The translations under genes and the position numbers were made by a program. From the NCBI GenBank assembly GCA_000619965.1, contig JHVD01000008.1, positions 1 through 64,000 on the forward strand: a stretch of DNA of 64,000 nucleotides, given 5' to 3'. The notes below the pieces were generated by a model, which saw only the letters and a list, made by a program, of their open reading frames with translations, ran no database searches and was not told the DNA's origin. Positions 21,670 to 22,655 of the stretch are shown here, piece after piece (within the stretch, counting starts at the first letter, position 1; every line of letters begins with the position of its first letter). The stretch comes from Propionibacteriaceae bacterium P6A17. Its GTDB lineage: Bacteria; Actinomycetota; Actinomycetes; Propionibacteriales; Propionibacteriaceae.

Positions 21670-21684
21670 CCGGCCGTGCCGCCC

Positions 21685-21757
21685 GTTCGTCGAGTGGTCG
21701 TCGGGCGTTTCCTTGTTCGTCGAGTGGCGGTCTGGCGTTTCCTTGTTCGTCGAGTGG
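21685..21757. repeat. Array of GTTCGTCGAGTGG half-repeats, 30-bp period
   Basis: Copies of GTTCGTCGAGTGG start at 21685, 21715 and 21745, exactly 30 bases apart, with similar GCGTTTCCTT fillers. They match one arm of the type A palindrome described in the next entry. Confidence 0.8.
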
Positions 21758-21830
21758 CCGCCGTAGGCGGCTGATCGAGACGTGGTGAGCTTGATCTCGA
21801 TACGCAGGCTGCGCCTGCTACTCGATCATC
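21745..21830. repeat. REP-like composite, copy 1 (palindrome A plus palindrome B)
   Basis: Palindrome A has stem GCCGCC-GTA-GGCGGC inside CGTCGAGTG...TGATCGAGACG. Palindrome B (21793-21830) has stem GCAGGC-TGC-GCCTGC inside GATCTCGATA...TACTCGATCATC. B in reverse complement aligns to A, so they are head-to-head members of one family. A near-identical composite is at 22445-22530, on the other side of the GIY-YIG gene. Confidence 0.85.
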
Positions 21831-21847
21831 TGTCGGGGCGTTTCCCG

Positions 21848-21949
21848 GTTCGTCGAGTGGCCGTCTGGGGTTTCCGGTTCGTCGAGTGGCGGTCTGGCGT
21901 TTCCTTGTTCGTCGAGTGGCCGCCGTAGGCGGCTGATCGAGACGTGGTG
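21848..21949. repeat. Half-repeats and a full type A palindrome before the GIY-YIG gene
   Basis: GTTCGTCGAGTGG recurs at 21848, 21877 and 21907 (29- and 30-base spacing). The last copy extends into a full type A palindrome to 21949. The 70 bases to the GIY-YIG start show no strong promoter. Confidence 0.8.
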
Positions 21950-22023
21950 AGCTTCCGCGGGGATTTGTCCACAGTTCATCTCGTGCGCGGGAATGTGCAA
22001 CCTGCCACGCCAACACTGATGGC

Positions 22024-22308
22024 ATGGCATGGATGTACATCTTGGAATGCAAGGACGGGACGTTCTACGTCGGGAGCACACGAGACCTCCACGGGCGGGT
22101 GGAGATGCACATGGCAGGCAACGGCGCTGCCTACACACGACGGCGACTGCCGGTGAAGCTGGTGCACGCCGTCGAATTCGAGAGCGTGGCTGAGGCCTTT
22201 GCCTTCGAGAAGCAGGTGCAGGGCTGGAGCCACGCCAAGCGCCAGGCGCTGATCGACGGTGACTGGGAGCGGATCAAACAGCTGTCGAAGAAGAAGCGGC
22301 GTGGCTAG
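22024..22308 (+). CDS. GIY-YIG nuclease (UPF0213-like) embedded in REP-like repeats
   Basis: A 94-residue single-domain GIY-YIG protein. The motif appears as MYILECKDG followed by FYVGSTRDL. A conserved Arg/His region (GRVEMHMAGNGAAYTRRR) comes next, then the metal-binding Glu in AFAFEKQVQGWSHAKRQAL. The C-terminus is a Lys/Arg-rich tail. Stand-alone proteins of this size are close to the UPF0213/YhbQ group, whose function is unclear. The gene lies alone inside about 950 bp of palindromic repeats, with one full composite copy on each side. The ATG at 22024 is the first in frame and gives the standard N-terminus. The repeat context suggests a REP-associated nuclease, by analogy with RAYT transposases; that is inference. 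Confidence 0.85.
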   Translation: MAWMYILECKDGTFYVGSTRDLHGRVEMHMAGNGAAYTRRRLPVKLVHAVEFESVAEAFAFEKQVQGWSHAKRQALIDGDWERIKQLSKKKRRG

Positions 22309-22323
22309 CCTGCAAGTTCGGCT

Positions 22324-22427
22324 GATCTCGATACGCAGGCTTCGCCTGCTACTCGATCATCTGGTGGGGTCGGGTGGCCTGCTACTCGATCATCGGGTGG
22401 GGGCGGGTGGCCTGCTACTCGATCATC
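22324..22427. repeat. Type B palindrome and two half-B repeats after the GIY-YIG gene
   Basis: A full type B palindrome is at 22324-22360. Half copies GGGTGGCCTGCTACTCGATCATC-like follow at 22372-22394 and 22405-22427, 33 bases apart. Confidence 0.8.
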
Positions 22428-22444
22428 TGGTGGGGTGTGGTCCC

Positions 22445-22530
22445 GTTCGTCGAGTGGCCGCCGTAGGCGGCTGATCGAGACGTGGTGGGGTTGATCTCGA
22501 TACGCAGGCTTCGCCTGCTACTCGATCATC
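22445..22530. repeat. REP-like composite, copy 2
   Basis: Palindrome A plus palindrome B in the same order and orientation as 21745-21830. The differences are mainly GTGGTGGGG for GTGGTGAGC in the linker and TTC for TGC in the B loop. The pair forms 86-bp direct repeats around the nuclease gene. Confidence 0.85.
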
Positions 22531-22542
22531 GGGGTGGGGCGG

Positions 22543-22630
22543 GGCGGTCTGCTACTCGATCTTCGGGTGAGGCGGGTGGCCTGCTACTCGATCAACTGGT
22601 GAGGCGGGTGGCCTGCTGATCGATCATCGG
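22543..22630. repeat. Half-B repeat array, about 32-bp period
   Basis: Three degenerate copies of the CTGCTACTCGATCATC arm occur at about 22543, 22574 and 22606, each next to GGGTG(A/G)GGCGGG filler. The array ends 25 bases before the exonuclease stop. Confidence 0.7.
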
Positions 22631-22655
22631 GTGGGGCGGGGCGGGCGTGCGAGGG

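Follow-up and report, generated by a model that had tools for sequence, protein, structure and literature searches.

Some palindromes that are very abundant in many bacterial genomes have so far been without a known enzyme; for the CGTC-tagged REPs this is stated as an open question in the section of PMC3733652 that deals with them. The same question is raised by the window, i.e. the whole stretch of 64,000 nucleotides analysed here (Propionibacteriaceae bacterium P6A17, contig JHVD01000008.1, positions 1 to 64,000), in which a gene for a small GIY-YIG protein lies among two kinds of palindromes. Does this gene belong to the palindromes, and does its product spread them?

A GIY-YIG gene in the spacer of a palindrome composite

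The genome containing the window consists of 2.73 Mb in 48 contigs. The palindrome mosaic occupies the entire gap between the end of a SIR2 gene (21669) and the end of a convergent exonuclease gene (22656). The initial annotation had described a 94-residue GIY-YIG gene within about 950 bp made of two related palindromes, with an 86-bp composite repeated directly around the gene. Both observations were borne out: hairpins A and B could be located in a mosaic of about 986 bp, and the two composites are 97% identical. The features are listed below, where the strand of a palindrome is the one on which TCGA...CTC is read.

21670 to 22655, no strand: whole mosaic, about 986 bp, between the convergent SIR2 and exonuclease genes; not present between these two genes in four same-genus genomes
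21687 to 21888, minus strand: zone of four orphan half-palindromes, each a CTC-side arm of A (21687-21696, 21717-21726, 21850-21859, 21879-21888)
21745 to 21830, plus strand: A+B composite without gene, a REPIN-like doublet of 86 bp (repeat comparison)
21748 to 21782, minus strand: palindrome A1 (motif scan, fold)
21792 to 21828, plus strand: palindrome B1 (motif scan, fold)
21910 to 21944, minus strand: palindrome A2, upstream flank of the gene (motif scan)
21955 to 22322, plus strand: putative gene cassette inside the A2/B2 spacer, ends approximate (placed by comparison with the intact A1/B1 spacer)
22024 to 22308, plus strand: small GIY-YIG nuclease gene, 94 aa, clade I (PF01541, E 6.7e-16)
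22323 to 22359, plus strand: palindrome B2, downstream flank of the gene (motif scan, fold)
22382 to 22593, plus strand: zone of four orphan half-palindromes, each a CTC-side arm of B (starting at 22382, 22415, 22552, 22584)
22445 to 22530, plus strand: second A+B composite, 97% identical to the first (repeat comparison)
22448 to 22482, minus strand: palindrome A3 (motif scan)
22492 to 22528, plus strand: palindrome B3 (motif scan)

The elements follow each other in the order A-, B+, A-, gene, B+, A-, B+, and therefore the gene sits in the A/B spacer. In the intact composite this spacer is 9 bp long (TGGTGAGCT); a third copy of the composite, starting at 21907, is split by the gene cassette. 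The folds of A1, B1 and B2 were better than those of nearly all dinucleotide shuffles (z -2.8 to -3.0; 1-4 of 200 shuffles equally good). A loose motif had 29 matches in the window, six of them being the full hairpins A1-A3 and B1-B3, and the other 23, which are outside the mosaic or long, look like chance. The generic pattern P1 was found at 40 sites of the genome, compared to 2 sites for a reversed-pattern control. Rfam gave no match.

All eight orphan half-palindromes in the window are CTC-side arms, with A halves upstream and B halves downstream of the gene, and this one-sidedness suggests a polar loss of the TCGA-side arm. When orphan arms were counted over many loci, allowing for the short hairpin form that would otherwise confound the counts, right-only arms had densities of 2.51/kb near and 1.53/kb far from the gene, and left-only arms 0.46 and 0.30/kb, respectively.

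The gene product is a single-domain GIY-YIG protein

The gene is intact, and PF01541 (E 6.7e-16) was the only Pfam domain found in its product. The catalytic residues of GIY-YIG nucleases are Tyr, Tyr, Arg and Glu, and the profile, the alignment and the structure model showed these residues and the fold of the superfamily in the window protein. In an alignment of 40 sequences including the window protein, Y5, Y15, G17, R25 and E62 were invariant. The predicted structure (pLDDT 94.5) was closest to UPF0213, followed by HIGLE, SLX1, I-TevI and UvrC domains, with the UPF0213 structure 1zg2 as the nearest solved one (E 4.8e-23). Although the small UPF0213/YazA proteins are the nearest in structure, their genes have a different neighborhood: the four loci studied lie behind a tRNA1(Val) methyltransferase gene, with rsmI next in three of them, and none of the four has such a hairpin. 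Nine phage records matched, each with less than 60% identity.

The hairpins accompany the gene across phyla

We scanned the loci of 80 named relatives, the best 80 of 572, which span actinobacteria, chloroflexi, cyanobacteria, Bacteroidota and others. The motif consisted of TCG[AG]...CTC enclosed by four or more outer pairs; "near" means at most 600 bp from the gene and "far" more than 2 kb. The hairpin density was 3.71/kb near the gene and 0.50/kb far from it. At this four-pair threshold, at least one hairpin was present within 600 bp at 73 of the 80 loci and none was found within this distance at the remaining 7, which answers in the affirmative the earlier question whether the repeats cluster near the gene. 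Six scrambled motifs gave near/far ratios of only 0.5-1.1 at the same loci. With a five-pair threshold the ratio was 10.6 for the true motif and 0-2.9 for seven scrambled ones, the highest of these coming from 1 and 4 matches. In a motif-free test for local repeats, 68 of the 80 loci ranked in the top 5% when compared with control positions of the same locus. A de novo test with dispersed 13-mers, which used loci of at most 20 kb, was mixed (no control position scored as high in only 25 of the 80 loci), probably since a second copy is often missing within 17 kb; the local-repeat test and the structural motif scan took its place.

The signature of the family is outer stem-TCGA...CTC-outer stem, with covarying pairs. 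Among 199 long-form palindromes from 61 of 130 loci, which had been found without requiring pairing, the base after TCGA was complementary to its partner before CTC (N-N') in 185, against 101.6 expected, and complementarity at the first outer pair was seen in 192, against 97.5 expected. This covariation shows that the hairpin is conserved across phyla as a structure and not only as a sequence. There is also a short form without the inner stem, TCGACAAGCTC; the pattern YTCGACRRGCTCR had a high background and was left out of the statistics.

The arrangement around the gene was similarly regular. Out of 93 loci examined for geometry, 77 were flanked on both sides, and the nearest hairpins were oriented -+ in 55 of these 77, +- in 8, ++ in 8 and -- in 6, with a median distance from the matched region of 78 bp for the preceding and 41 bp for the following hairpin. 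Hairpins were present at 28 of 28 class-level loci (4.97/kb) and at 13 of 13 family loci (5.85/kb), where the class, family and named sets partly overlap. No enrichment was seen in the controls, namely in SIR2 flanks (0.37/kb; at least one hairpin at 11 of 29 loci) and in 28 whole loci of UvrC and other GIY-YIG proteins (0.30/kb), and hairpins were present at none of four Y1_Tnp flanks and none of the four UPF0213/YazA loci. We regard the association between the gene and the hairpin as secure.

In two Methylobacterium loci (L257, L261) small GIY-YIG genes lie between an inverted TCCTTCGAGG...CACCTCAGGA pair, suggesting that the hairpin family extends into alphaproteobacteria. A Cupriavidus locus with a small GIY-YIG gene (L259) had one long motif match, on one side only. 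A different sequence, GTTTCACGTGAAA, presumably a parS-like ParB site, occurs in several copies within 500 bp of the GIY-YIG gene at four loci (L039, L063, L067, L085), three of them titled Microbacterium or Microbacteriaceae and one Stenotrophomonas.

The hairpin subtype tends to follow the protein

Some genomes contain several paralogs of the gene. One of them, G272, has five paralogs with five hairpin subtypes (four if the two-base core alone is counted), three of which are dispersed over the contigs (216 sites, of which about the first 100 are listed). We compared 19 paralogs from seven such multi-copy genomes, permuting the labels inside each genome. The nearest paralog in another multi-copy genome had the same two-base core in 14 cases and a differing one in 5; the mean of the permutations was 4.4, and 4 of 10000 reached 14 matches. 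On a tree of 129 proteins, the core base, mapped for 113 labelled loci, changed 26 times, compared to 48.1 times after shuffling (minimum 41 in 500 shuffles). The tree left out seven clade II or partial loci, 14 duplicates and one too-short sequence, and 16 of the 130 loci were dropped as they had no clear subtype label. Shuffling on the tree keeps shared ancestry in, whereas the permutation within genomes removes it.

Two pairs of loci (L161/L178 and L183/L186) share a flanking gene, yet their GIY-YIG clades and their subtypes both differ; only one same-subtype pair, L174/L181, has flanking-gene homology. In multi-paralog genomes the hairpin subtype thus tends to follow the protein more than the site.

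Copy number and presence of the gene

The gene is patchily distributed, being present in 18 of 117 genomes of the family and in 40 of 394 genomes of the class. The initial annotation had asked whether genomes with many palindromes always carry the gene, and this holds as a tendency only. At least 30 P1 sites were found in 24 of the 40 gene-positive and in 5 of the 354 gene-negative class genomes (Fisher 3.9e-23, ignoring phylogeny; the copy-number thresholds of at least 30, 40 and 20 were chosen after the tables had been inspected), and fewer than 30 in 16 of the 40 positives, which include one weak partial match (G378). In family f1, from which four genomes with clade II matches were excluded, repeat-rich genomes made up 12 of the 14 with a clade I gene and 12 of the 99 without one (p 3.9e-8, ignoring phylogeny); the two positives outside the repeat-rich set (G002, G020) have variant hairpins beside the gene. 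The median number of P1 sites in family f2 was 55.5 with the gene (n=24) and 14 without it (n=12; p 0.0024, ignoring phylogeny), and no difference in P1 sites was seen in family f37 (n=11 and 9, p 0.52). A copy-number difference was thus seen in the class, f1 and f2, and not in f37. One of the observations that the initial annotation had named as counting against the link, abundance of the repeats in genomes lacking the gene, applies in part, namely in 12 of 99 gene-negative genomes of f1 and 5 of 354 of the class.

The 12 repeat-rich, gene-negative genomes of f1 are exceptions to an "always". A PF01541 search that also covered G082, G071 and G000 did not find a divergent clade I gene in these 12 genomes; its matches were only longer, partial or contig-edge GIY-YIG sequences, and reading eight such places in seven genomes gave no clade I gene. 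These genomes may be relics, reflect assembly gaps or be signs of other drivers. One genome of the same genus as the window (G095, one contig) has 311 sites of TTCGACRRGCTCA, and the search for a small GIY-YIG gene of clade I found none there.

Empty sites and a natural insertion

We compared the content of the gap in nine same-genus relatives with a close SIR2 locus. In four of them the exonuclease gene lies within about 190 bp of SIR2, a gap that is too short for a GIY-YIG gene and contains no palindrome; the two motif matches in these relatives fall within coding sequences. For the other five, no exonuclease gene could be found in the stretch available beside SIR2. Since four genomes of the genus have adjoining SIR2 and exonuclease genes with an empty gap, it appears that the mosaic entered the gap in the window.

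A second insertion was found in a Cytophagales MAG (L088), where a hairpin-GIY-hairpin unit lies in frame inside an HsdR reading frame. Residues 23-287 of the solved homologue 3h1t align with residues 6-283 of this HsdR, and residues 287-577 with 405-684; the gap in the alignment therefore corresponds to a 121-residue insert with hairpins at both ends. These comparisons show that a given site may or may not contain the unit of gene and palindromes.

Comparison with known systems

In the part of PMC6006769 that describes them, REPtrons have inverted palindromes round the enzyme gene, an enzyme-specific palindrome family, dispersed gene-less doublets and a patchy distribution. The system in the window resembles these REP/RAYT (TnpA-REP) REPtrons and REPINs, as it has the gene between inverted copies, a private palindrome family, dispersed doublets and patchiness. 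It differs in the hairpin, which has a TCGA/CTC internal mismatch instead of an unpaired GTAG foot; GTAG was seen only within the arm of one subtype, on the other strand. It also differs in the enzyme: no Y1 (HUH, RAYT-type) transposase (PF01797) was found in the window genome, and one is present in 6 of the 117 family genomes. This agrees with the initial annotation, where the GIY-YIG protein was the only candidate enzyme. The system would work like REP/RAYT, but we do not count it as a member, since a search of the window genome for the defining enzyme found none.

Free-standing GIY-YIG homing endonucleases share the catalytic domain and the patchiness with the window gene. In contrast to them, the latter encodes a single domain, lies in no visible intron, has inverted hairpins of its own and is accompanied by dispersed gene-less copies. 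Among the titles listed in our searches of the open-access literature, none reports a link between a small GIY-YIG gene and REP-type palindromes, and the accessible parts of two bacterial studies (PMC9465073, PMC10928387) do not link GIY-YIG and RAYT.

A probable REPtron-like element with a nuclease

We consider it probable that the gene and the palindromes form one REPtron-like mobile-element system, in which a hairpin-directed GIY-YIG nuclease would replace the RAYT transposase. The initial annotation had called a nuclease-driven spread of palindromes conceivable; the link itself is well supported by flanking, subtype congruence, copy number, empty sites or insertions and the failure to find a Y1 transposase in the window genome, whereas we infer that the nuclease drives the spread. 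The nuclease would recognise its cognate hairpin, probably through the TCGA/CTC mismatch loop together with the N-N' pair next to it and while the DNA is single-stranded or a cruciform during replication, and would cut it. New copies of hairpins, of doublets or of the unit with the gene could then arise, mostly at intergenic sites, through repair or replication restart. Since the enzyme would work in trans on gene-less copies, these would outnumber the gene. The GIY-YIG domain is a hydrolytic nuclease, and for this reason strand joining would be supplied by host repair; we know of no GIY-YIG nuclease that rejoins strands. If the unit is mobile in this way, it looks as though no known transposase is needed for its spread. 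It would then be a mobile element operating by cutting alone. With a nuclease of one domain and some 94 residues, and a cognate hairpin that can be predicted, direct tests of how such repeats arise and spread would come within reach.

The alternative that survives best, although we think it unlikely, is a homing-type selfish gene that lands in pre-existing palindromes and moves by break-induced gene conversion between arrays, the palindromes being made otherwise. GIY-YIG is indeed a class of homing nucleases, and the position within the A/B spacer, the patchy distribution (18 of 117 and 40 of 394 genomes), the repeat-rich genomes without the gene and a Sphingobium allele with a gene-less hairpin at a clade II site (see below) would all suit such a gene. 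However, the empty sites of the four relatives offer no palindrome as a landing place, the HsdR insertion carried its own hairpins, and the subtype tracks the protein in two of the three shared-flank pairs (in the third, both agree).

Still less probable is that a structure-specific host nuclease polices hairpins or cruciforms by trimming or resolving them, and sits among them via autoregulation or selection. After UPF0213, the nearest solved folds include the structure-specific nuclease SLX1, and the orphan half-palindromes beside the gene in the window are CTC-side in 8 of 8 cases, but gene-positive genomes have more hairpins, not fewer, and paralogs within one genome retain different subtypes. 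Finally, the convergent genes around the gap in the window and the existence of gene-less arrays would fit hitch-hiking, i.e. palindromes (perhaps terminators) and a small dispensable gene gathering in convergent gaps, but we regard this as very improbable, as there was no enrichment at random positions (mostly coding) or at SIR2, UvrC, YazA and Y1_Tnp loci, and the inverted geometry and the congruence of enzyme and subtype would be left unexplained.

Clade II genes and CGTC-REPs

A second clade of small GIY-YIG genes is flanked by CGTC-tagged REPs. The CGTC-REPs, including Neisseria dRS3, are treated in a section of PMC3733652 as REP-like hairpins occurring as inverted dimers, with no associated transposase gene, and in these features they resemble the window system. 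Their traits are a CGTC/TGTC foot, an 8-9 bp stem starting with AT and a CCA tail; clade II hairpins fit this description and the window hairpins fail it, making the TCGA...CTC hairpin a distinct family.

We studied 18 plasmid-collection loci with clade II genes, picked for diversity from 33 records and partly non-independent (three Shinella, three related Sphingobium, two Rhizobium and two Sinorhizobium). CGTC-type hairpins were near the gene at 9 of the 18 loci with a strict tag and at 16 with a relaxed one. Their density was 3.09/kb near and 0.20/kb far from the gene, and of the 14 loci flanked on both sides 10 had the orientation +-. With five scrambled tags the near matches numbered 0, 10, 2, 2 and 0; the ten were confined to 3 loci, where they may overlap these very hairpins. 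A GTCA scan of 18 actinobacterial clade II loci gave a weak signal (2.12 vs 0.95/kb).

The same gap of Sphingobium plasmids was filled in three aligned records, in one of which the match is in two pieces, as after a frameshift. A fourth record has a gene-less double-foot hairpin in the gap, and a fifth neither gene nor hairpin. A double-foot REP could, according to the pertinent section of PMC6006769, result from a central deletion in an inverted dimer.

More tentatively, and with slightly less than even confidence, we propose that bacterial palindromic repeats have a second general enzymatic engine in the small GIY-YIG nucleases, with clade I acting on TCGA...CTC hairpins (actinobacteria, chloroflexi, cyanobacteria and others) and clade II on CGTC-REPs including Neisseria dRS3. 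These repeats would spread by hairpin cutting and host repair, as a class of mobile elements without transposase or recombinase.

Two clade II loci have neighbors of some interest. In Azospirillum lipoferum (L275:4986-5279) the GIY-YIG gene lies with CGTC hairpins between sufB and sufC, and its neighbors on a Planktothrix plasmid (L262:4989-5273) are a gene for a type IIL restriction enzyme (MmeI) on one side and drmA, encoding the DISARM helicase, on the other.
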